This document shows, piece by piece, positions 34,508 to 46,884 of a stretch of 64,000 nt of DNA. The position numbers were made by a program, and so were the translations under genes. Numbering within the stretch: position 1 is the first letter of the stretch; the number at the start of each line of letters is the position of its first letter. The notes beneath the pieces are model-generated. The model worked only from the letters and a program-made list of their open reading frames with translations, had not been told where the DNA came from and made no database searches. Source of the stretch: Halosolutus amylolyticus (GTDB lineage Archaea; Halobacteriota; Halobacteria; Halobacteriales; Natrialbaceae); NCBI RefSeq assembly GCF_023566055.1, contig NZ_JALIQP010000003.1, positions 1 through 64,000 on the forward strand, read 5' to 3'.

Positions 34508-35815
34508 ATGAACCAGCGAACCCGCGTCACCGTCGCCGTCGGCGTCATCGTCCTGTTGATCGCGTCACTCGGGATCCAGGCGATCGCGATCGATCGGTCC
34601 CCGAACGTCGTCGACGAGGGCGACAGGTATCCGGGGAACACGCTCGTCGGCGTCCACTCGTTCTCCAGCGAGGGGCGTATCGTCGAACTGTCGCCCGACG
34701 GCGAGGTCGTCTGGGAGTGGTCGGTGCCGGACTCGCGCGTCTTCGGCGTCGAACGACTCGACGAGCGGACGGTGCTCGCGGCCGTCGCGGTCAGGATCCC
34801 CGACGACGACTGCGACGCGGAGTACCTCGAGTACGAGGAGGAGGACGAACACTGCGTCCACAATCGCGTCGTCGAGATCGACACCGAGACGGACGCAGTC
34901 GTCTGGGAGTACGACTGGTACGACGAGTTCATCGCCGACCACGAGGTCCACGACGTCGAGCGCCTCGAGAACGGCGAGACGGCGATCGTCGACACGGGGG
35001 CCGATCGCGCGTTCACCGTCGATCGCGACGGCGAGATCACCTGGGAGTGGCAGGCCGAGGAGCACCTGACGCCCGGCACCCCGTTCTACGAGGCGTACGG
35101 CGGCCCCGAGAAGGAGGGAGAACACGACGACTGGACGCACGTGAACGACATCGATCGACTGGAGAACGGCAACTTCCAGTTGAGCATCCGCAACTTCGAC
35201 GTGATCGTCGAGGTGGACCCGGAGACCGACGACGTCGTCGACGTCATCGGTACCCCTGGCGATCACGACGTCATGGCCAGACAGCACAATCCACACCGCA
35301 TCGAAGCCGCGGAGACGATCGTCGTCGCGGACAGCGGGAACGATCGCATCGTCGAACTCGACACGGCGTCCGAAGAACGCGTCTGGCAGTACACCGGCCC
35401 GCCGGGCGATCGCCTCCAGTGGCCCAGGGACGCCGATCGATTGCCCAACGGAAACACGCTGATCACGGACACCCGGAACAACCGCGTGCTCGAGGTCAAC
35501 CCTGACGGCGAGATCGTCTGGCAGTTCCACGATCCCCGCGGCGAGGTGATGCCGCAGCCGTACGAGGCCGACCGGGTCGGCGTCGGCGAACGATCGGACG
35601 TCCCGCCGGGGTCCGAACTGACCGACGTCGACGGCGAACCTGGCCCAGTCGAGTCGACGGTTCGGGAGTGGGAGGCCATGGCCCGATACGTCTTCCCGAC
35701 GTGGATGCACCTCCCGCAGCTACTGCACGTCGTCGGCATCGCCCTCGGCGCGCTGTGGCTCTGTGCGGAGGGGGCCGTCTTCGCCTGGCGACGGCTCACC
35801 GCCGATCGGCGGTGA
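34508..35815 (+). CDS. Arylsulfotransferase (ASST)-like beta-propeller membrane protein
   Basis: The 435-residue protein has an N-terminal signal-anchor (VTVAVGVIVLLIASLGIQA, about 8-26), a propeller of about 300 residues with recurring aromatic motifs (VVWEWSVPD, VVWEYDWYDEF, ITWEWQAEEH, RVWQYTGPPG, IVWQFHDPRG), and a C-terminal membrane helix (LLHVVGIALGALWLCAEGAV). The layout matches ASST-family proteins, whose bacterial members transfer sulfate between phenols. The catalytic His of the bacterial enzyme cannot be placed with confidence, so a structural or binding role outside the cell is equally possible. The following genes concern cell-envelope chemistry. Confidence 0.85.
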   Translation: MNQRTRVTVAVGVIVLLIASLGIQAIAIDRSPNVVDEGDRYPGNTLVGVHSFSSEGRIVELSPDGEVVWEWSVPDSRVFGVERLDERTVLAAVAVRIPDDDCDAEYLEYEEEDEHCVHNRVVEIDTETDAVVWEYDWYDEFIADHEVHDVERLENGETAIVDTGADRAFTVDRDGEITWEWQAEEHLTPGTPFYEAYGGPEKEGEHDDWTHVNDIDRLENGNFQLSIRNFDVIVEVDPETDDVVDVIGTPGDHDVMARQHNPHRIEAAETIVVADSGNDRIVELDTASEERVWQYTGPPGDRLQWPRDADRLPNGNTLITDTRNNRVLEVNPDGEIVWQFHDPRGEVMPQPYEADRVGVGERSDVPPGSELTDVDGEPGPVESTVREWEAMARYVFPTWMHLPQLLHVVGIALGALWLCAEGAVFAWRRLTADRR

Positions 35816-35885: not shown

Positions 35886-36851
35886 TCACCGGGATGCCTT
35901 GTACGTGAGAAACACCGCCGTCCCGAGCGCCGCGGCGTACCACAGCGTCCCCACGCGGATCACGATCGTGGCGGCCGCCGCGACGGCTTCCGGGTAGCCG
36001 AACGTAACCAGCACGCCGACCATCGAGGCCTCCGCGGCCGCGAGTCCCCCGGGGAGCATCGACACGGCGCCGACGACCGATCCGAGACCGAAGACGAACA
36101 GGCCGATCACGACGCCCGCCTCGACGCCGAACCCGTCGAGTACCAGCCAGAGCGCGACTCCCTCGAGCCCCCAGGCCGCGAGGCTGAACAGGGTCGAGAC
36201 GACCAGCGGACGGACCTGGAACAGGCGGTACGCGCTCTCGTAGAACTGTTCCAGTTCGGACGCGTGGCCCCCGACGACCGGGAGCGACTCGAGTCGATCG
36301 AGGATCGCCAGACAGGCCCGTCGCCACTGGAGCAGGCCGATCCCGGCCCCGATGGCGCCGAGGACGACGACGATCGGGAGCGACGATCGGCTGTAGACGA
36401 CCAGTCCGAGCGCGGCCATCGCGCCGAGGGCGACGAGGTCCGTCACCCGCTCGGCGCCGACGACGGAGGTGGTCTTGCTCGCGGGCACGCCGCGGTTGTC
36501 TCTGAGGAACCACGCCTTCCAGACCTCGCCGGCCTTCCCGGGCGTGACGACCATCATCAGACCGCTGAAGAAGGTGATGGCGCTCGCGTCGAGCGGAACG
36601 TCGACCTCGAGGTACCGGAGGTAGTAGTGCCACTTGGCGAACCGGAAGCCGTAGCCGACGGTCGTCAGGCCGAGGACGGCCGCGAACGTCCGCCAGTCGA
36701 CGGCCACGAGGGCGCTCGTCACGTCGCCGACGTCCGCGTAGACGGCGAGACCGAGGAAGACGACGACCGAGAACAGCGCCGTCACCCAGACGCCGTGGTC
36801 GCGGACGACCGCCCGGCCGCGATCGACGACGGTCTCGCTGTAGTCGCTCAT
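35886..36851 (-). CDS. LPG-synthase-type (flippase-like, UPF0104) integral membrane protein
   Basis: The 321-residue protein has about eight membrane helices and the family signature of lysylphosphatidylglycerol synthase TM regions: FRFAKWHYYLRYLEVDVPL, then GLMMVVTPGKAGEVWKAWFL around residue 97, and VVGAERVTDLVALGAMAALG. C-terminally, SVVGAVSMLPGGLAAAEAS is also conserved. Archaeal relatives such as AglD and AglR carry this domain in protein glycosylation, where it may flip or modify lipid-linked sugars. The gene overlaps the PHP gene upstream by four bases, so they are cotranslated. Confidence 0.9.
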   Translation of the reverse strand: MSDYSETVVDRGRAVVRDHGVWVTALFSVVVFLGLAVYADVGDVTSALVAVDWRTFAAVLGLTTVGYGFRFAKWHYYLRYLEVDVPLDASAITFFSGLMMVVTPGKAGEVWKAWFLRDNRGVPASKTTSVVGAERVTDLVALGAMAALGLVVYSRSSLPIVVVLGAIGAGIGLLQWRRACLAILDRLESLPVVGGHASELEQFYESAYRLFQVRPLVVSTLFSLAAWGLEGVALWLVLDGFGVEAGVVIGLFVFGLGSVVGAVSMLPGGLAAAEASMVGVLVTFGYPEAVAAAATIVIRVGTLWYAAALGTAVFLTYKASR

Positions 36852-37534
36852 CGCCGCAGCATTCCCCCCGACGTGAGGCTCGCGACGGCGCGACTGGAGA
36901 CGGTCCGGAACTGGTGGAGTTTCGTCGCGACGTGTCCCGAGAGGTAGCGTCCGCGGCCGCCCGGTCGCACGCGCCCGTCGCGGACGGCGTCCGCGAGCGA
37001 GCCGCCGCCCTCGACGCTGGTGTACGCCCGGCCGACTTCCATCGGGAAGTGCGCGTCGCTCCCGCCGGTCGCCGGCAGGTCGCGGGCGGTCGCGAACGCC
37101 GCCGCGCGATCGTTGAACCGGCGGCGGACGCACCGGGAGTTCACCGCTTCGACGCCGTCGACGGCGGCCGCGAGGGCGTCGAGGTCCGTCTCGTAGTACT
37201 GTCGTAGCGCGTCGAACGGGTGCGAGAGAACGGCGACGCCGCCCTGCTCGTGGACGCGATCGACGACCGTCAGCGGGTCGGTCCGGGGCGGCGCCTCCGT
37301 GACGTCGATCGCGAGCAGGTGCCCCTCGGTCGTCGTCACCTCGACCCCGGGGACCACGTCGAGGTCGTCCGGCGCGGCGTCTCGAACGGCGTCGACGTTG
37401 GCGAGCGTGTCGTGATCGGTGACGACGATCCCGTCGAGTCCGGCGTCGGCCGCCGCCGCGGCCACGCGATCGGGCGACGCGCTCGAGCAGGGCGAGGCGT
37501 CCGTGTGCACCTGGAGATCGTACCGTTGCGTCAT
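36848..37534 (-). CDS. PHP-domain phosphoesterase
   Basis: The 228-residue protein has all four PHP metal motifs: LQVHTDASPCSSASP at the N-terminus, VVTDHDTLAN (about 38), GVEVTTTEGHLLAI with the bridging Glu (about 63), VLSHPFDALR, and the C-terminal GGSDAHFPMEVG. This points to an active metal-dependent phosphoesterase, such as histidinol-phosphatase- or nucleotide-phosphatase-like members. It is sandwiched between the UbiA-type gene (upstream, 31 bp) and the LPG-synthase-type membrane protein (overlapping), so removal of a phosphate from a lipid-linked sugar phosphate is a plausible role, by inference. Confidence 0.9.
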   Translation of the reverse strand: MTQRYDLQVHTDASPCSSASPDRVAAAAADAGLDGIVVTDHDTLANVDAVRDAAPDDLDVVPGVEVTTTEGHLLAIDVTEAPPRTDPLTVVDRVHEQGGVAVLSHPFDALRQYYETDLDALAAAVDGVEAVNSRCVRRRFNDRAAAFATARDLPATGGSDAHFPMEVGRAYTSVEGGGSLADAVRDGRVRPGGRGRYLSGHVATKLHQFRTVSSRAVASLTSGGMLRR

Positions 37535-37565
37535 GCTGGTCTCGATGTGGAGCGGTGTGTTCGAG

Positions 37566-38480
37566 TCACGTGATCAGCCCGAGTAGTCGGACCGGAACCT
37601 CGTAAAGGACCGCGACGACGAGCAGTCCCCAGACGGCGAGATTGACGAGAAACGGGTGATCTCCGAAGAGGAACGTCGGGTCGCCGCCCAGATTTTGCGT
37701 GTGAGCGAGGAAGTGGTAGCGGAAGGCCGCGAAGAAGGCGAACGGGAGCGTGGACATCATCCACAGTCCGCCGCGGAAGAACGTGTACAGCGAGTAGGAG
37801 ACGACCAGCGCGGCGAGGACGACGACGAGCAACTGGTCGAGGATCTCCTCGGTGTACTCGGCGAGAGTCCCGCGCGACGCGGCCGGATCGTCGCTGACGG
37901 CCATCTCGTGGCGGCGCTTTCCGATCGCGAGCATCAGGGCCCCGAGGAACGTACAGACGACGAGCCAGGGACTCAGGTAGACGTCGATGGCGACGACGCC
38001 CGCGATCGCCCGCAGGACGAACCCGATCGCGACGATCATCACGTCGACGATGACGATTTCTTTCAGAAACGAGGAGTAGAGGGCGTTCTGGCCGAGGTAG
38101 GTGAGCACGACGAGGAGGAACAGCGGGCCGACGTACCACGAGAGCGCGAGGCCGACGACGAAGAGCACGAGCGCGAACGACACCGCGACGGGGATCGGGA
38201 CCTGTCCGCTGGCGATGGGACGGTGCTTCTTCCGCGGGTGGTTTCGGTCTTCCTCGATATCGAGAATGTCGTTGCCGATGTATGTCGTCCCCGCGACGGC
38301 ACAGAATGCGACGATTCCGAGGGCGACGTTCGTGACCGCGATCGGATCGAACAGACTCCTGGAGAAGACGAGCCCCAGAAGCAGCACGCTCTGCTTGTAC
38401 CACTGCCAGGGGCGCATCTCCTTTACCAGGCCGGAAAGGGTTACCACGACCCGACTCCGGGTGGCATGGGCGCGGGCCAT
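37566..38480 (-). CDS. UbiA prenyltransferase, polyprenyl-phosphate phosphoribosyltransferase type
   Basis: The 304-residue protein has eight to nine membrane helices and the two Asp-rich UbiA motifs. The first, NDILDIEEDRNHPRKKHRPI, falls near 70-89, and the second has the form KEIVIVDVMIVAIGFVLRAI, found near 140-160. The combination of the DRxHPxKxxRPIASG form with the WQWYKQ start is that of decaprenyl-phosphate phosphoribosyltransferase (mycobacterial Rv3806c) more than of quinone or lipid prenyltransferases. It would then transfer 5-phosphoribose from PRPP to a polyprenyl phosphate. The nearby PHP phosphoesterase, epimerase and GT-C genes fit such a pathway. Start at ATG 38480; MRPWQWYKQ 21 codons later is possible. 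Confidence 0.9.
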   Translation of the reverse strand: MARAHATRSRVVVTLSGLVKEMRPWQWYKQSVLLLGLVFSRSLFDPIAVTNVALGIVAFCAVAGTTYIGNDILDIEEDRNHPRKKHRPIASGQVPIPVAVSFALVLFVVGLALSWYVGPLFLLVVLTYLGQNALYSSFLKEIVIVDVMIVAIGFVLRAIAGVVAIDVYLSPWLVVCTFLGALMLAIGKRRHEMAVSDDPAASRGTLAEYTEEILDQLLVVVLAALVVSYSLYTFFRGGLWMMSTLPFAFFAAFRYHFLAHTQNLGGDPTFLFGDHPFLVNLAVWGLLVVAVLYEVPVRLLGLIT

Positions 38481-38963
38481 CTGTCCCTATCGCCCCACGC
38501 AGGACGGCAAAAAGATCCGGCTTGCTTGTGACCGATTCACGGGTATACCCTGACGCTAATCGGCGGTAAGTACCGGACGAACGGTCGTCCAGAGCGGCAG
38601 GGGGGGGCACCGAGCGTTCGAATACTTCGCTTCGAGAAACGAAACCGAACGACCGGGTGTGATACCCGGTCCGTCGAACGTCCGTACCAGCCGTGTGGTG
38701 CGCTTACGTGCCACGTACTCGAGCGACCGGATACGAGCGGGACGGCCGGTACCGTAATGTACCATTGCGGTGTGAACAACCGCTGACCATCGTCCCGTTT
38801 CTACGACGCGAAACGATTGCTCGTCTCGAAGTCGGCGTCCGTTCAGTCGCACCGCCGTGGCCCCGGGATTCTGAGCTGTATAAGGAGTATTCCGCCAGTA
38901 CAAGAGCCGCTACTCGGCGATACACTATTGGGGCACCGTATTGACGTCCCGCCTGAAATCACG
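38481..38963. other. Divergent intergenic region UbiA / epimerase
   Basis: This 483-bp gap between divergent starts contains no supported gene; the frames here are arginine-rich or break often. It includes a run of seven G (38600 region) and AT-rich patches near 38880-38935 that may form the promoter of the epimerase gene. Confidence 0.5.
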
Positions 38964-40055
38964 ATGAGCGATAGCGAGCACGCCACCGACGACTCGAACG
39001 GTTCGGTTCTCGTGACGGGGGGCACCGGTTTCCTCGGCCTCCACACGTGCCAGTACTTCCGCGATCGGGGCTGGGACGTCACTGCGCTCGATCTCAAGCC
39101 CTTCGAGGAGGAAGACGACACTGATGGCCTCGGGTTCGTCGAGGGGGACGTCCGGAGCGAGAGTGACGTGGCCGACGCGATCGAGGAGAGCGGTGCCACC
39201 GCCGTCGTGCACGCGGCGGCCGCGCTCCCGCTCTGGGACGCCGATCGCATCCGCGAGACGACCATCGACGGAACGCGGAACGTGCTCTGGGCGGCGAACG
39301 AACGCGACGTCGATCGGGTCTGTTACATCTCCTCGACCGCGGTCTACGGGACCCACGACGAACACCCCATCACCGAGGAGTCACCCCTGGATGGGGTCGG
39401 CGCCTACGGCGAGGCCAAGATCCAGGCCGAGAAGGTCTGCCAGGACTTCCGCCGCATGGGGATGTGCGTCCCGATCCTTCGTCCGAAGACGTTCATCGGG
39501 CCGCAGCGACTCGGCGTCTTCCAGGTCCTGTTCGACTGGATCGAGGACGGCGCGAACGTCCCCCTCGTCGGGTGGGGGAACAACCGCTACCAGCTGTTGC
39601 ACGTCCACGACCTCGTCACCGCTATCGAGTTGCTGCTCACCGGCGACGAGGCCGACGTCAACGACACGTTCAACGTCGGCGCCGACGAGTTCGGCACGAT
39701 GAAGGAGGACTTCCAGGCTCCGATCGACCACGCGGGGACGGGCAAGCGAACGATCGGGACGCCCGCCACCCTCACGGTCGCGGTCCTCCGCGCATTGGAG
39801 AAACTGAACCTCTCGCCACTGTACCCGTGGGTCTACGAGACGGCCCACGAGGACTCCTACGTCTCCGTCGAGAAACTGAAACGCCTCGGCTGGGAGCCCG
39901 AGTATTCCAACCGGGAGGCGCTCGTGGAGACCTACGAGTGGTACCTGGAGCAGTACGAGGCCGACGATGCGGGTGACGAGACCGGCCTCGACCACCGCGT
40001 CGCGTGGGATCAGGGAGCCCTCGCCGTCGCGAAGAAGGTTTCACAGCACATCTGA
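38964..40055 (+). CDS. NAD-dependent epimerase/dehydratase family protein
   Basis: The 363-residue extended SDR has the Rossmann motif SVLVTGGTGFLGLHTCQYF (about 14-32), an acidic residue ending the second strand (VTALDLKP), SSTAVYG and the catalytic YGEAK (about 145-150). C-terminal substrate loops (LLHVHDLVTAIELLLTGDEA, FNVGADEFGTMKED) fit nucleotide-sugar or related epimerases. An NAD-dependent modification of a sugar donor used by the two glycosyltransferases next to it is likely. I used the ATG at 38964 (MSDSEHATDD); a longer frame from 38817 is promoter DNA. The GT-C gene starts one base after its stop. Confidence 0.92.
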   Translation: MSDSEHATDDSNGSVLVTGGTGFLGLHTCQYFRDRGWDVTALDLKPFEEEDDTDGLGFVEGDVRSESDVADAIEESGATAVVHAAAALPLWDADRIRETTIDGTRNVLWAANERDVDRVCYISSTAVYGTHDEHPITEESPLDGVGAYGEAKIQAEKVCQDFRRMGMCVPILRPKTFIGPQRLGVFQVLFDWIEDGANVPLVGWGNNRYQLLHVHDLVTAIELLLTGDEADVNDTFNVGADEFGTMKEDFQAPIDHAGTGKRTIGTPATLTVAVLRALEKLNLSPLYPWVYETAHEDSYVSVEKLKRLGWEPEYSNREALVETYEWYLEQYEADDAGDETGLDHRVAWDQGALAVAKKVSQHI

Positions 40056-40056
40056 G

Positions 40057-41424
40057 ATGGCTGTGCGTTCACGTCTCCAGACCCGCTCCGACTGGGTCGT
40101 CATCCTCGGACCGATCGTCGCCGTCCTGTTCGCCGCCGGACTCGCGGACTATCTGCTGACCGGGTGGCCGCGGATCGCGACCGATCCGGCGTTCTTCCAG
40201 CACACGGGCTGGTATGTCCTCCAGGGCGGAATTCCGTACGTCGACGTCTGGGACGTGAACCCGCCGGTTCCGTTCGCCATCACGGCCGCGCTCGCGTCCG
40301 TCTCGGGCGGGAACATGCTCGTCCTGCACGGCCTGAGCGTGACGCTCACGGTGCTCGTCGCCGGCGCGAGCGTCATGCTCGTCGGGTGGGTGGCATACCT
40401 CGTGACCGGGCGGAACGCGGCCGCGATCGCCGCCGGTCTCACGATGCTCGTCGTCCCGGAACTCTTCCTCCTCTCCCCGGAAGGGGTTCGGGCGCAGTTC
40501 TACGCGCTGTTCTTCGGGACCCTGGCGCTCGGGCTGGCCCTTCGCGATCGGCCGTTTCTCGCCGGGGCCGCGGCGGCGCTGAGCGCCGGGTCGTGGCAGT
40601 CGGGTGTAGTTTTCGCGCCGCTAGTCGTCGGGATTGCGTACCAGCGAGCCGGTGGGAAGAACGCGCTCCGGGCGATCGCGGGCGGCGGCGTCGTGACCGG
40701 ACTCGTCGTTCTCGCGTTCGCGGCCGCGGGCGCGCTCGTTCCGATGGTCGTCCAGGCGATCGTCGCGCCGCTGGTCGCGGGATCGTCGTACACCCTGTCC
40801 GAGAACGTCTACTCGATCCTGCTGGTGTTCGGCTACGGATCTCTGCTCCTCCCGGTGGCGCTGTTCGGCTGGGCCTATGCCGCCGTCCGCAACCGTCGGC
40901 GGCTGTGGTGGGTGCCGACGGGCGGGCTGCTCCTCGGCTACCAGGTGCTGTTCGTCGATCTCGACGGTTCGACGGACGCGTTGCCGTGGCTCGCGTTCGT
41001 CGCGATCGGCGTCGCCCTCGCCGTCGACCGTGTGCTCGTGTACGCGAACCGATCGGGGGCGACCGATTCCCGCAGTGCCGACGCGATCGGACCGTCCCGC
41101 TATCAGTGGACAGCCGTTGCGGCCGTCGTCGCAGTCGTCGGACTGCTCGTCCTCTCGGGGGTCGTCTGGCACCAGGGTTCGCCGTACCCGCAGTCGACGT
41201 TGCAGACGATGCAACAGGACGCCGAGGTGGAGGGGGAGCCGCCACCGATAACGCCGGCCGACGGCGAGGCCCCCTCGATGCAGACCATCTACTGGGAGCA
41301 ACTCGAACCCGAGACCTGTCACTACCGGTTGAGCTGGAACGAAGTGCGATGGGTCGCGATGACCGACGATCGACTGGATAGACAGCACTGCGGCGGGTGG
41401 CCGAGTCGAACCGATCGCGGCTAG
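40057..41424 (+). CDS. GT-C type membrane glycosyltransferase (DolP-mannose mannosyltransferase-like)
   Basis: The 455-residue protein has about ten membrane segments and a short soluble C-terminus. The first extracytoplasmic loop, FFQHTGWYVLQGGIPYVDVW, and the DVNPPVPFAI that follows, carries the acidic residues expected in GT-C enzymes that use dolichol-phosphate sugars. It resembles the haloarchaeal DolP-mannose mannosyltransferase group. It is translationally close to the epimerase gene (1-bp gap) and convergent with another GT-C gene, so a role in N-glycosylation or lipid glycosylation at the outer membrane face is likely. Donor and acceptor are unknown. Confidence 0.82.
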   Translation: MAVRSRLQTRSDWVVILGPIVAVLFAAGLADYLLTGWPRIATDPAFFQHTGWYVLQGGIPYVDVWDVNPPVPFAITAALASVSGGNMLVLHGLSVTLTVLVAGASVMLVGWVAYLVTGRNAAAIAAGLTMLVVPELFLLSPEGVRAQFYALFFGTLALGLALRDRPFLAGAAAALSAGSWQSGVVFAPLVVGIAYQRAGGKNALRAIAGGGVVTGLVVLAFAAAGALVPMVVQAIVAPLVAGSSYTLSENVYSILLVFGYGSLLLPVALFGWAYAAVRNRRRLWWVPTGGLLLGYQVLFVDLDGSTDALPWLAFVAIGVALAVDRVLVYANRSGATDSRSADAIGPSRYQWTAVAAVVAVVGLLVLSGVVWHQGSPYPQSTLQTMQQDAEVEGEPPPITPADGEAPSMQTIYWEQLEPETCHYRLSWNEVRWVAMTDDRLDRQHCGGWPSRTDRG

Positions 41425-41464
41425 CGGGTCGGCATCTCCGGCGCGCGTCAGTCTTCCGGCGCGA

Positions 41465-43084
41465 TCACCGGATCAGTCGTCGATTCGAGCGGTCTCGATC
41501 GCCGACGGCGATGCTCGGCTCTGCGTCCGCGTCCGTCTCCCCCTCCGCTGCGGTGCGTTCGAACCGGACCACCGTGATTCCGTTGTACTGGCGCTCCTCC
41601 ACCGGCCCGCGGTACTCGTCGTGGGACGCCACCGCCTGGCTGATCCGCCGGTCGGTCGACGAGTCGGTGTACGAGAGGACGATCCAGACGTCGTCGTGGC
41701 CGTCGACGGCGCCCCGTATTTCGTCGGTCGACGCGTCGGGCGGGATTCGCACCGTGGTCACGTCCGATCGATCGACGTAGTAACCGAACGGCCGTTCCGC
41801 GAACGGTCTGCTCACGAGGACGACGTCGTCACCGTCGGCGGTCGCCTCGACGTCGGCGGCGGCCTCCCGCCACTGTTCTTTCTGGTCCGCCTGGTAGTAC
41901 GTCGGGAGCGGCGCGACGAGGGCGACGAGGAGGACCCCGATCACGACGAACCGAAGCGACGACCGAGAGATCGTCCGGACCCCGACCGCGATCAGGAGGA
42001 AGAAGGCCAGCGACGCCCCGATCGAGTACCGATCCACGAAGATCGGCGTGACGACGTGCGAGAGGGCGATCGGGACGAGTATCGGCACGACGAGCCAGAG
42101 GAGGGTCAGGTAGACGGCGTTTACCGGTGAATCCTGTCGATCGGCCGCCGCCGTTGCGGTCCCGCGATCGCCCGAGAGCGCGAGGACCAGACAGCCAACG
42201 ACGACGAGCGAAACGAGAAACGGGAACGACTCGCCGAACAGGTAGCCACCGAGATAGGCCGCGAACGTCTCTCTGACGGTCTCGGCCGTCGGGAGCGGAA
42301 TCCACGAGACGTTGCTCGCTTCTCCTCCGTGTGCTGCTATCGTCCGGCGGAGCAATCGCACCACCCACGGAAGGAGGAGAGCGGCGGTGATCCCCTGGAG
42401 TGCGATCCAGCGGCGGAGCGTCAGCCGCGATCGGGGGACGATCCGGACGACGGGCCGAGAGAAGACGTACGCGTTCTGTGCGAGGATCGCGAACAGGCCG
42501 AACACGTGCGTGTACCCGAGGAGAACCGTGGAGACGGCGTACCCGATCTCGTCGCGGATACCGCCTTCGTCCCGCGGTTTCGCCGTCTGTAAGCGGACGA
42601 ACCAGTAGAACGAAAGCACGGTCAACAGCGCGAGCAGATTGTACATTCGCACCTCCTGGGAGTACCAGACGTGGAACGGCGAGACGGCGACGAGCAACGC
42701 TGCGATCGCCCCGACCTCTCGGTCGAAGAGTCGGCGGCCCACCCCGTAGCAGACGACGACGGTGGCGACGCCGACGAGGGCCGACAGCAGTCGCGTGGCC
42801 AGTTCCGACGTTCCGAAGATCGCCGTCCATCCGGACAGGAGGAGATAGTACAGCGGCGGGTGCGGATCGTTGCCCGGCACGCTGACCAGGAGTTCGATCG
42901 GCGCGTTCGACGTGACGATGGTCACCGAGACGACTTCGTCGAGCCAGTAACTCTCGGACTCAAGCCGGAACAACCGAAGCGAAGCGGCGACGAGCGCGAT
43001 CGGGTACAGTTCGATCGGGACGCCCGCCAGGGACCGATCGCCGTTTTGCTCCCCGTCCATCCAGGCCGTCGGGGACAGCGACAT
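41465..43084 (-). CDS. Glycosyltransferase family 39 (PMT-like, GT-C) membrane protein
   Basis: The 539-residue protein has about eleven membrane segments and a C-terminal soluble domain. The first loop ESYWLDEVVSVTIVTSNAP contains the GT39 Asp-Glu pair and is followed by GNDPHPPLYYLLLSGW, a standard motif of archaeal and bacterial ArnT/PMT-like enzymes. AVSPFHVWYSQEVRMYNLLA is also characteristic. Such enzymes transfer a sugar from a polyprenyl-phosphate donor to a protein or lipid outside the cell. I used the ATG at 43084 (MSLSPTAW). It converges with the other GT-C gene with a 40-bp gap. Confidence 0.9.
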   Translation of the reverse strand: MSLSPTAWMDGEQNGDRSLAGVPIELYPIALVAASLRLFRLESESYWLDEVVSVTIVTSNAPIELLVSVPGNDPHPPLYYLLLSGWTAIFGTSELATRLLSALVGVATVVVCYGVGRRLFDREVGAIAALLVAVSPFHVWYSQEVRMYNLLALLTVLSFYWFVRLQTAKPRDEGGIRDEIGYAVSTVLLGYTHVFGLFAILAQNAYVFSRPVVRIVPRSRLTLRRWIALQGITAALLLPWVVRLLRRTIAAHGGEASNVSWIPLPTAETVRETFAAYLGGYLFGESFPFLVSLVVVGCLVLALSGDRGTATAAADRQDSPVNAVYLTLLWLVVPILVPIALSHVVTPIFVDRYSIGASLAFFLLIAVGVRTISRSSLRFVVIGVLLVALVAPLPTYYQADQKEQWREAAADVEATADGDDVVLVSRPFAERPFGYYVDRSDVTTVRIPPDASTDEIRGAVDGHDDVWIVLSYTDSSTDRRISQAVASHDEYRGPVEERQYNGITVVRFERTAAEGETDADAEPSIAVGDRDRSNRRLIR

Positions 43085-43235
43085 AGTACCGACTGCAACG
43101 ATCCGGCGTATGAATGTTGGTCGACTACCGGAGCCTCCCAGCGAGAACAACTGCGACGAGAACGTCGCTCAGGTGGCTCCGTCGAAGTCGAATGGCAGGT
43201 CTGATCATTCCCGGACTATCGGGTCGTGGCGAAAA

Positions 43236-43871: not shown

Positions 43872-44210
43872 TCAATCTTCGGTCCACCACATGAGGTCCT
43901 CCTTTTCGGTGCCGCAGTTGGGGCATCGCTCCGGGAGTCCGCCGGCAATCTCCCCCATCTCACCGCAGCTCATGCATCGCCACATGAGGTGGGCCTCACC
44001 GAAGTCGTGCCCCGACCTGGCGTGTTCGATACTGAGCTGTTCCATGCCGTCACGCGTGGATACGAAGAACCCCCCTTTCTCGTATCCCCGTACAGTCCCG
44101 AGTAACTCTCCGTCGGTATTGTAAACGTTCTCTCCAAGAGCGACCGACTCTGCCTCTTGTGTCGCCTGTTCGTCTCCCTCTTCTTCGGGTCGTTCACCAC
44201 GTCCACTCAT
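43872..44210 (-). CDS. DUF7130-like rubredoxin-type zinc-ribbon protein
   Basis: The 112-residue protein has an acidic N-terminus, a PRC-barrel-like beta part (VALGENVYNTDGELLGTVRG, YEKGGFFVSTRDGMEQLSIE) and a C-terminal rubredoxin-like ribbon with two CxxC pairs (LMWRCMSCGEMGEIAGGLPE, then RCPNCGTEKEDLMWWTED). Four cysteines could bind iron or zinc. This fits the haloarchaeal DUF7130 family as I remember it, whose role may be in electron transfer but is not established. I used the ATG at 44210 (MSGRGERP); the frame extends further upstream. Confidence 0.85.
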   Translation of the reverse strand: MSGRGERPEEEGDEQATQEAESVALGENVYNTDGELLGTVRGYEKGGFFVSTRDGMEQLSIEHARSGHDFGEAHLMWRCMSCGEMGEIAGGLPERCPNCGTEKEDLMWWTED

Positions 44211-44716
44211 AGTATCGTACTGAAGTCGTCGAAAGCCCACGTCGCCTCCCGTCTTGTTGTTCGTGAAAACAGGCATTCGTGTAGACGACCGGGTTTGGTT
44301 GGGTGTCTGTGACGAGGCCATACCGCGGCAGGAGTCGGCACACCACTCTCACGCTTGAGCGGCTTCAGAGCAGTTGTCGATGCGTTCTGCCGTTCGATCG
44401 GTCGCCCTCACGTGGTCGATTTGAGCTCCTGCCACTGGAGTGTGCTTCACCAGTTAGGTGGGCAAAGCTGGGGCCGGAACGTGCAGTCTGCGAAGCGAAT
44501 GTTCTTGTACCGACTGGTTTTCCGGCTCTCTCTGAGACTGGAGGGGACCGAGAATCCGGTCATTGCGGACTGACGGGTGACCGTGACGGCTGACCTCGCG
44601 GACAGTTACCCCGTAGTAAGTACGGATGAGTTCAGCACGTCGGCGTCGTTTCTATAAGATGTTCTATATGAGGTTCGCACCCCGGTTATATATCGTTGGT
44701 ATGAGTATTCGTATAC
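44211..44716. other. 506-bp gap without a convincing gene
   Basis: The region has mixed composition and several interrupted frames. A 72-codon ORF at 44355-44573 and an overlapping 96-codon ORF give peptides that look like pieces of an eroded protein but match no family I know. The right end (from about 44650) is AT-rich and contains the TATA box of the small zinc-finger gene. With the MITE and the frameshifted gene nearby, the stretch looks like decayed DNA. Confidence 0.45.
44685..44694 (+). promoter_or_regulatory. TATA box of the small zinc-finger gene
   Basis: GTTATATATC is centred 27 nt before the ATG at 44717, a strong match to a leaderless haloarchaeal promoter. Confidence 0.6.
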
Positions 44717-44896
44717 ATGGCTCACGCCCCAGAACGGCCGGAAAAGTACGTTTGCACAAATTGTCAGACGATGCACGCCGGGACAGTCACCGAACGAACC
44801 GATACCGGTCCTCACTACGATGCACCTGCGGAGTGTGGCTGTTGCGGCGCAACAGAACTGGTCACTGAAGAAACCTGGCCGCATTTCAACCAATAG
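44717..44896 (+). CDS. Small zinc-finger protein (59 residues)
   Basis: The reading frame from ATG 44717 to TAG 44896 encodes 59 residues starting MAHAPERPEKYVCTNCQTMH. A CxxC pair (YVCTNCQ) and a second cysteine group (AECGCCGATELV) separated by 23 residues, with histidines in between, form a probable zinc-binding site. It resembles the very small zinc-finger proteins common in haloarchaea, some of which affect motility or biofilm formation. The strong TATA box at leaderless distance and acidic, haloarchaeal codon choice support expression. The stop is followed by about 200 bp without a gene. Confidence 0.8.
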   Translation: MAHAPERPEKYVCTNCQTMHAGTVTERTDTGPHYDAPAECGCCGATELVTEETWPHFNQ

Positions 44897-45099
44897 CTAC
44901 TCTCTCGATACGAGTCGACGAACAGCAATCGTTTCTGATATAACTGCCGACGATCGGTTCGCACACGTATTTTCCGCGAGCGTCGTGTCCGCGAAGCCGT
45001 TCCCGGGGACACCTTGCCTGCAGGAAGTACAGCCAACACTCGTAACAGTCGGTCAGAAGTTCTCGCGTACACTTGCACTATCGACGTCGATCGGGCCGG

Positions 45100-45501
45100 C
45101 TACGCTTCGAAGGCGCTCACGCGCTCCGGCCGGATCGACATGATGACACGCTCCGTCTCGATCGGGTTCTGGTACTCCTCCGCGTCGGTGTATCGCCGTG
45201 CCAGTTCGTCGATGTGCTCGCGTGCGCCCTCGGTCGTGAGTTCGTCGACCTCGCCGGTCACCGAGAGCATTCGGTAGGGGTTGTCCGGGTCGGTCATGCT
45301 GACGGCGACCCGTGGGTCGTGACGGACGTTCTTTTCCTTTCGCCGATCGCGCTCGGTGTTGACGAGCAGTCGATCGGCGTCGGGGTCGTAACCGATCCAC
45401 ACCGGCGTCACGTGCGGGGAGCCGTCGGGCAACAGGGTCGAGACGTGGGCGAACGTCTCTTTCTCGAACAGGTCCTGGAAGTCGTCCGGAATCGAGGCCA
45501 T
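45100..45501 (-). CDS. PPOX-class (pyridoxamine 5'-phosphate oxidase-like) flavin/F420 protein
   Basis: The 133-residue protein has the split-barrel fold of PNPOx-like enzymes: AHVSTLLPDGSPHVTPVWIG, DPDADRLLVNTERDRRKEKN, VRHDPRVAVSMTDPDNPYRM and SVTGEVDEL are the classic strands and loops. Small members with RRKxxNVR-type sequence usually bind F420 or FMN and reduce small organic compounds. I used the ATG at 45501 (MASIPDDF). It is a single gene, without obvious functional link to its neighbours. Confidence 0.9.
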   Translation of the reverse strand: MASIPDDFQDLFEKETFAHVSTLLPDGSPHVTPVWIGYDPDADRLLVNTERDRRKEKNVRHDPRVAVSMTDPDNPYRMLSVTGEVDELTTEGAREHIDELARRYTDAEEYQNPIETERVIMSIRPERVSAFEA

Positions 45502-45640
45502 ACCCACAGTGCTGCGCCCTGGCATAAATTCACGATGCCTTTCTATGCAACCGGGACGAACGGGCCGATCGAGTCGAATATCGGCCCCAGAGCTCCGAAT
45601 ATCGGACGTTCGGCTCTACGAGGATCGATCGACTCACAGG

Positions 45641-45720
45641 CGGACCACTGAAAGTCAGTTTCGGTGTAACCGCGACCGTCCTGCGGTTGTCCCGGTAAAC
45701 CGTTACAGCAGACCGTCTCA
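45641..45720 (-). repeat. Dispersed repeat, copy A (begins with the acyl-CoA dehydrogenase stop codon)
   Basis: Read on the minus strand, the copy begins TGAGACGGTCTGCTGTA and ends near CAGTGGTCCG. Inside is an inverted-repeat-like GC-rich core (ACCGCAGGAC and GGTCGCGGT). The first three bases are the stop codon of the acyl-CoA dehydrogenase gene. Copies B (62850-62922) and C (54907-54986) share the same order of blocks. Confidence 0.75.
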
Positions 45721-46884
45721 GTACGATCGGGGCAGGCCGAGCGTGTGTTCGGCGAGGAAGTTCCGGACCATCTCGTTGGTGATCGGGACGGTCTTGAGCA
45801 GTCGGGAGTTCTGCCAGATGTCGTAGACCTCGTAGTCCGCCGAAAACCCGTTGCCGCCGTGGGTCTGGACCGCCTGGTCGGCCGCCTTCGTCGCGGCCTC
45901 GCTCGATCGGAGTTTGGCGATGTTCGCTTCGGCGCCGGCGTCCTCGCCGTGGTCCCACTTGGAGGCCGCCTTGTAGGTCATCTCGCGGGCGCACATGAGT
46001 TCGGCGTAGGCGTCGGCGAGCGGGTGCTGGATCGCCTGGTGGCCGCCGATCTTCTGCCCGAAGACCGATCGTTCGTTCGCGTAGTCGACGGCGAGATCGA
46101 TCGCCCGGAGGCCGCCGCCGATCGCGCTGGCCGCGCCGGCGATCCGCTCGGTGTTCAGGGTGTCCCACAGGAGGTAGAGGCCGCCGTCCTCCGCGCCGAG
46201 GATGCGGTCCTCGTGGACGCGCAGGCCGTCGATGTCGACCTGGTACTGGGTCTCGAACCACGGTACCTCGACGTCGAGCGGGGTGAGCGAGATGCCGTCC
46301 TGGTCGGCGGGTTCGGGGACGAGGAACATCGAGACGCCGTGGGTCGGGTTGTCCGGGTCGAGGTCGGAGGTGCGGGCGATCAGCAGCATTTCGTCGGCGT
46401 TCTCGACGCCGCTGATCCACATCTTCTGGCCGGAGATGACGAACTCGTCGCCGTCTCGCTCTGCGGTCGTATCGATGTTGATCGTGTTCGTCCCGGCTCC
46501 GGCCTCGGTCAGGCCCATACAGAAGCGCATCTCGCCGTCGGCGATCGCCGGCAGATACTCCTCCTTCTGTTCCTCGGTGCCGTGGCGCTGAATGCTGATC
46601 CCGCCGAAGACGGGCGTGAGAACGAAGATGATCCCGCCCTGTCCGCCGCCCCGGGAGAGTTCCTCGATCACCATCGACATCTCGAGCATCCCCAGGCCGG
46701 CCCCGCCGTGCTCCTCGGGGATGGTGACGCCGAGCCAGCCGTCTCGCGCGAGGTCGGCCCAGTACTCCTCGGGGAACTGCTTCTCCTCGATGCAGGTCTT
46801 CCAGTACTCCCAGTCGTAATCGCTGGCGATGTCCCGGACGCTCTCCCGGATCAGCCCTTGTTCCTCGGTCTCGGTATAGACCAT
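45718..46884 (-). CDS. Acyl-CoA dehydrogenase
   Basis: The 388-residue flavoprotein introduces the alpha-beta double bond into an acyl-CoA. Domains in order are an N-terminal helical domain (ARDGWLGVTIPEEHGGAGLG), the middle beta domain (RFCMGLTEAGAGTNTINIDT, then GQKMWISGVENADEML) and the C-terminal helical domain (YANERSVFGQKIGGHQAIQH; AVQTHGGNGFSADYEVYDIW with the FAD-contacting glycines and nearby acidic residues). Length is normal. I used the ATG at 46884 (MVYTETEEQ). Its stop codon starts dispersed-repeat copy A. The carboxyltransferase gene is divergent, so both may belong to the same acyl-CoA pathway. Confidence 0.94.
   Translation of the reverse strand: MVYTETEEQGLIRESVRDIASDYDWEYWKTCIEEKQFPEEYWADLARDGWLGVTIPEEHGGAGLGMLEMSMVIEELSRGGGQGGIIFVLTPVFGGISIQRHGTEEQKEEYLPAIADGEMRFCMGLTEAGAGTNTINIDTTAERDGDEFVISGQKMWISGVENADEMLLIARTSDLDPDNPTHGVSMFLVPEPADQDGISLTPLDVEVPWFETQYQVDIDGLRVHEDRILGAEDGGLYLLWDTLNTERIAGAASAIGGGLRAIDLAVDYANERSVFGQKIGGHQAIQHPLADAYAELMCAREMTYKAASKWDHGEDAGAEANIAKLRSSEAATKAADQAVQTHGGNGFSADYEVYDIWQNSRLLKTVPITNEMVRNFLAEHTLGLPRSY

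Follow-up and report, generated by a model that had tools for sequence, protein, structure and literature searches.

A haloarchaeal gene cluster proposed to make and use a polyprenyl-phosphate-linked pentofuranose

Introduction

In the haloarchaeon Halosolutus amylolyticus, a UbiA-superfamily gene is clustered with genes for a PHP-family phosphoesterase, an LPG_synthase_TM membrane protein, an epimerase and two GT-C glycosyltransferases. The cluster lies within positions 1 to 64,000 of contig NZ_JALIQP010000003.1, and this whole 64,000-nucleotide stretch is referred to here as the window. The question raised by the locus is what such a set of genes would do together. The analysis indicates that they probably encode an archaeal pathway in which a pentofuranose is built on polyprenyl phosphate and then used. 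Gene identities, a conserved binding site for 5-phosphoribosyl diphosphate (PRPP), operon structure and gene co-occurrence can all be read directly from the sequences. The name that the UbiA protein has in databases is already right; the new elements are the proposed pathway, with its candidate phosphatase and flippase, and the epimerase and transferases that co-occur with it.

The genes of the cluster are as follows (lengths in amino acids, aa; SDR, short-chain dehydrogenase/reductase).

37566-38480, minus strand: UbiA-superfamily protein, predicted polyprenyl-phosphate phosphoribosyltransferase, 304 aa (NF008977, PDB 8j8j, PRPP-site residues, predicted fold)
36848-37534, minus strand: PHP-family metallophosphoesterase, 228 aa, candidate 5'-phosphatase (PF02811 and PF13263, linkage to UbiA)
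35886-36851, minus strand: LPG_synthase_TM / TIGR00374 flippase-like membrane protein, 321 aa, candidate flippase (PF03706, TIGR00374)
38964-40055, plus strand: extended-SDR NAD-dependent epimerase, 363 aa, candidate for acting on a lipid-linked pentofuranose (PF01370)
40057-41424, plus strand: first GT-C, of the AglS (DolP-mannose mannosyltransferase) family, 455 aa, candidate pentosyltransferase (PF15971 Mannosyl_trans4)
41465-43084, minus strand: second GT-C, PMT_2 / GT39-like, about 539 aa from its ATG (PF13231/PF02366)

The original prediction had placed these same kinds of gene together here, and its coordinates and gene types were all right.

The UbiA protein, a probable phosphoribosyltransferase

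The UbiA protein, which carries the stretch DIEEDRNHPRKKHRPIASG, scored 246.4 bits against the NCBI equivalog model for decaprenyl-phosphate phosphoribosyltransferase (NF008977, cut-off 234), and its closest relative in the PDB was the mycobacterial enzyme Rv3806c (8j8j, E 1.7e-36). The PRPP contacts of Rv3806c have been mapped, and other UbiA proteins do not conserve the residues with which it binds phosphoribose (PMC10994848). Fifteen Rv3806c positions were mapped onto the window UbiA, 42 other archaeal homologs and the seven other UbiA paralogs of the host. Nine residues of the PRPP and Mg2+ site, Arg22, Lys28, Tyr70, Asn73, Asp77, Lys87, Arg90, Tyr138 and Lys143, were kept in all 43 archaeal homologs, the window UbiA included, whereas among the seven host paralogs Lys28 was found in none, Tyr70 in two and Lys87 in one. 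A structure model built from 33 archaeal sequences (mean predicted local distance difference test score 89) was nearest to PRPP-bound Rv3806c (8j8j, E 1e-11, TM 0.81/0.84). The best match to a prenyl-transferring UbiA came behind it (E 5e-6), and DGGGP synthase and AfUbiA were less close. These results agree with the mycobacterial phosphoribosyltransferase form first ascribed to this protein, which would very likely catalyse the opening step, from PRPP and polyprenyl phosphate to polyprenyl-P-ribose-5-P.

Distribution and linkage of the module

A phylogenetic profile was made across 391 genomes of the class Halobacteria. UbiA was present in 45 of them; the epimerase was present in 44, all within the 45 with UbiA, and in 0 of the 346 genomes without it (Fisher p about 1e-57, with genomes treated as independent and uncorrected for phylogeny). 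PHP adjoined UbiA at all 45 of the haloarchaeal loci that were examined, and the flippase-like gene was there at 44. One genome (G641) carried UbiA and PHP only, without the epimerase. In two others (G616 and G652; loci L104/L112 and L137/L138) the epimerase was still present, on a different contig from the UbiA-PHP-flippase genes. Just one sampled haloarchaeal genome (G348) had a close PHP ortholog yet gave no UbiA hit, and there a C-terminal UbiA remnant alone stood beside the PHP and flippase-like genes.

Outside the haloarchaea, relatives in the same phylum had UbiA proteins of 36-45% identity. The set of UbiA, PHP and flippase-like genes was kept in seven of these loci (L035-L038, L041, L042 and L045), and the UbiA-PHP pair in two (L039 and L040). 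As UbiA passes its model's cut-off, the set recurs at 45 haloarchaeal loci and at distant ones, and the epimerase tracks UbiA, the gene set is far beyond chance. The module is real, conserved and functionally coherent, and is most likely an archaeal version of a known type of pathway.

Carriers of the module include Natrinema, Natronorubrum, Natrialba, Haloarcula amylolytica, Halococcus, Halalkalicoccus and Natronococcus, and several of its copies are on megaplasmids. The host family includes two loci, in G576 and G690, at which the UbiA, PHP and flippase proteins were only about 60% identical to those of the host, and the epimerase and second GT-C, with the AglS-type GT-C in G576 also, were 65-87% identical; we read these as mosaic loci, from the sequence identities. 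No UbiA relatives were found in the viral contigs searched, and among phage records the one match was distant and came from a short entry that bears no annotation. In two of the non-haloarchaeal relatives with the three-gene set, a DUF362 protein adjoins UbiA (L036:8092-9261 and L037:10608-11672).

Proposed steps after phosphoribosyl transfer

The steps set out below, with the order of dephosphorylation, epimerisation and flipping, the sugar and its acceptor, are proposals drawn from sequence comparison.

The 5'-phosphate would quite likely be removed by the PHP protein. This protein matched PF02811 above cut-off, together with PF13263, and its predicted fold resembled PHP phosphoesterases (3e38, Z 22; PsfC, Z 21; RNase AM, Z 19; and 2yb1, which holds AMP and phosphate, Z 18). 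Residues were compared between PHP proteins from 54 UbiA-linked loci beyond the window and nine unlinked PHP proteins. The HPFD position was Asp in 54 of 54 linked proteins and Gln in nine of nine unlinked ones, and a C-terminal HxxTK motif common to the linked proteins was missing from the unlinked ones aligned. Because the unlinked paralogs are no more distant overall, the Asp and the HxxTK motif were read as related to substrate. The idea of a polyprenyl-phosphoribose donor pathway with PHP as its 5'-phosphatase, already put forward for this DNA, is favoured by residue, structure, neighbourhood and phylogenetic-profile tests, all at the level of sequence and prediction. A membrane-binding amphipathic C-terminal helix was also considered for the PHP protein and is not claimed; hydrophobic moments were unremarkable (those of the paralogs were not measured).

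The epimerase showed the SDR motifs TGxxGxxG and YxxxK, invariant in 15 of 15 aligned sequences. It is reasonably probable that this SDR oxidises and re-reduces one carbon, by which some or all of the lipid-linked ribose would become another pentofuranose (xylo or arabino). One SDR suffices for such a change, because the lone SDR of Citrobacter O2 turns lipid-linked ribose into lipid-linked xylose (PMC11127046). The best NCBIfam name for the protein was HpnA, the hopanoid epimerase, which was rejected because the score, 96 bits, fell below the cut-off of 368.

The LPG_synthase_TM protein scored 142 bits on PF03706 (cut-off 33) and 98 on TIGR00374 (cut-off 43). By analogy it is best read as the flippase of the pentose donor, and a role in carrying the donor across the membrane appears fairly likely. 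Seven haloarchaeal loci (e.g. L105:6861-7511) have a gene for a VTT-domain membrane protein next to the flippase-like gene.

For the last step, the balance of the evidence leans towards transfer of the pentose onto a surface glycan, wall polymer or glycoprotein by the AglS-type GT-C, perhaps with the second GT-C. The AglS-type protein scored 102 bits on PF15971 (cut-off 33). Its orthologs (at least 62% identity) were present in 18 of 18 host-family genomes known to have the module and in no genome known to lack it. Orthologs of the second GT-C (at least 72% identity) were found in 10 genomes, every one bearing the module. Beyond the host family, a different transferase adjoins the module. In nine loci (e.g. 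L033:8976-10373), mostly in Halococcus-type genomes, the module is adjoined by a roughly 470-aa membrane protein that has no Pfam match and is possibly another GT-C.

Counter-evidence and alternative explanations

Several observations speak against the proposed pathway, here and under the first two alternatives below. In the window UbiA, Asn replaces the ribose contact Gln135 of Rv3806c and Phe replaces Tyr157, and Lys208 has no conserved counterpart. The flipping of lipid-phosphate sugars by LPG_synthase_TM proteins is an analogy. Mannose is the sugar known for AglS-family enzymes, and another GT-C of the host, 79% identical to the AglS-type gene of the window, lies about 490 kb away with no pentose module beside it (G000:C3:533396-534733, L149).

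The pathway might end at ribofuranose, with the SDR working on a different sugar of the same glycan, such as a nucleotide sugar of the acceptor chain. Wall chemistry bears on this: ribose has been reported at 60 nmol/mg in the wall of Halococcus salifodinae (PMC4187196), and UbiA was found in nine of ten Halococcus genomes (scored by genus, not for the species salifodinae), the tenth being 72% complete. The wall ribose fits the proposed pathway, as a hint, and it can be RNA carry-over. The same analysis gave no xylose or arabinose, though the sampled Halococcus genomes carry the epimerase. Apart from this wall table, the literature searched on pentoses in haloarchaeal glycans held nothing decisive. 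A ribose end product would also suit the genome with UbiA and PHP without epimerase, and the nearest solved structures to the SDR, which are nucleotide-sugar enzymes. On the other hand, the epimerase occurs solely with UbiA and is more conserved than UbiA, and bacterial systems are known to diversify their lipid-linked sugar with one SDR (PMC11127046). We regard a pathway stopping at ribose as possible, though unlikely, and epimerisation of the lipid-linked sugar is preferred.

In all 45 UbiA-linked haloarchaeal PHP proteins the first His of the HxH metal motif is Gln. This substitution is the main doubt on the dephosphorylation step, and it raises the possibility that PHP is inactive, regulatory or directed at another phosphoester substrate. 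The remaining conserved His, Asp and Glu positions are kept in these proteins, however, and the His is present in the aligned non-haloarchaeal UbiA-linked PHP proteins. At none of the haloarchaeal loci examined is PHP missing next to UbiA, and those genes of the window cluster that were scanned gave no match to another phosphatase family. Loss of the phosphatase role is considered improbable, and PHP remains the preferred candidate for removing the 5'-phosphate.

Polyprenyl-phosphate phosphoribose could be a general donor, and the lipid-linked pentose might decorate a membrane lipid, or be the precursor of a ribosylated small molecule, instead of reaching a surface glycan. Against this, GT-C transferases work on the outer face of the membrane and strictly co-occur with the module in the host family, and the operon includes a flippase-like gene. 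Such a destination is judged quite unlikely, and a surface acceptor is favoured.

That the UbiA protein is an ordinary prenyltransferase (with an aromatic or glycerol acceptor, or in carotenoid elongation) among unrelated neighbours is highly improbable: most members of the superfamily do transfer prenyl groups and the host has seven other UbiA genes, but this one differs from those paralogs in its phosphoribose-specific residues, passes the equivalog cut-off, is nearer in fold to Rv3806c than to DGGGP synthase or AfUbiA, and has neighbours that are fixed across distant archaea.

Comparison with known systems

The mycobacterial decaprenyl-phosphoryl-arabinose pathway (Rv3806c, Rv3807c, DprE1/DprE2 and Rv3789) was the parallel drawn in the original prediction. 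It stands for the first enzyme, which is clearly related to Rv3806c and keeps its PRPP site, and does not extend to the DprE1/DprE2 route to arabinose. A search for the ALO family of DprE1 (PF04030) gave no match in the host genome and was positive in a Corynebacterium control, and arabinose formation via DprE1/DprE2 was set aside for this reason. The phosphatase, flippase and transferases also come from other families; a PAP2-type counterpart of Rv3807c is absent beside the host UbiA, where PHP is in its place (PAP2 proteins were not searched genome-wide).

As the host gave no DprE1 (ALO) match, the bacterial three-component pentofuranose system of Citrobacter youngae O1/O2 (PMC11127046) is the closer parallel. 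It combines a UbiA-type polyprenyl phosphoribose synthase with phosphatase, flippase and GT-C components and, optionally, one SDR epimerase, and the synthase, GT-C and SDR epimerase are likewise found together in the host locus. The Citrobacter system has a HAD phosphatase domain fused to the synthase and a MATE flippase, whereas the archaeal locus has a PHP protein and an LPG_synthase_TM protein, with no HAD or MATE match in the scanned proteins. The Citrobacter GT-C belongs to family GT136, and the archaeal ones were assigned by Pfam to PF15971 (AglS) and PMT_2. Genes beside other bacterial synthases encode a HAD phosphatase and GtrA (Lactococcus plasmid), a PAP2 protein (Marivivens), or an FAD oxidoreductase and an SDR resembling DprE1/DprE2 (Flammeovirgaceae). 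Most likely, PHP takes the place of the PAP2 or HAD phosphatase, and the LPG_synthase_TM protein that of the SMR, GtrA or MATE flippase.

Among archaeal systems, the AglD-AglR-AglS branch of Haloferax (PMC3871713) is alike in that a monosaccharide on dolichyl phosphate is flipped and then transferred by an AglS-family GT-C. There the donor comes from a GT2 synthase and the sugar is mannose, whereas a PRPP-using UbiA and a pentose are proposed here. Some loci have these genes in this order and are annotated in RefSeq with the names decaprenyl-phosphate phosphoribosyltransferase and PHP domain protein, for example on a Halostagnicola larsenii plasmid and in Halanaeroarchaeum (HLASA_2008-2013; PMC4866403); a functional name was given there to UbiA only and no pathway was proposed.

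A broader reading has about an even chance of being right. The operon of UbiA, PHP and LPG_synthase_TM genes would be the base of an old pentofuranosylation machine of the archaea's own, in which a PHP metallophosphatase with Gln in its metal site and this flippase fill roles that fall to unrelated proteins in bacteria. One SDR would yield a pentofuranose so far unreported from the surface glycans of archaea.

If the proposed pathway is true, archaea would join the mycobacteria and the few O antigens in which lipid-linked pentose donors made from PRPP have mostly been studied. Specific functions would follow for one subfamily each of the PHP and LPG_synthase_TM proteins, and for an SDR that is unnamed in databases. 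Pentoses would also be predicted in the surface glycans of named, often culturable haloarchaea, including Halococcus; the wall-building enzymes of these haloarchaea are largely unknown.

Layout of the locus and flanking genes

The window has two divergent operons with flanking genes. On the minus strand the PHP gene starts 31 bases past the UbiA stop, and the LPG_synthase_TM gene overlaps the PHP stop as ATGA; these three genes are an operon. On the plus strand a single base separates the epimerase from the AglS-type GT-C. The divergent arrangement of UbiA and epimerase was seen again in most haloarchaeal loci. The open reading frame of the second GT-C opens with TTG at 43150, upstream of the ATG. 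Two further features were recorded.

38481-38963, no strand: divergent intergenic region between the UbiA and epimerase operons (sequence inspection)
34508-35815, plus strand: arylsulfotransferase-like beta-propeller protein, putative accessory, both ends predicted to form a membrane helix (PF05935/PF14269, two hydrophobic segments)

The intergenic region probably holds the promoters of both operons, which are predicted from the gene arrangement. Just past the second GT-C, at 44001-46000, the G+C content falls to 0.593 (surroundings about 0.67), and no insertion was identified in this stretch. Orthologs of the arylsulfotransferase-like protein (at least 72% identity) were found in 14 host-family genomes, all bearing the module, and many of these orthologs lie far from it. 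In one genome (G430) the neighbour of the arylsulfotransferase-like gene is a second AglS-type GT-C copy (L150).

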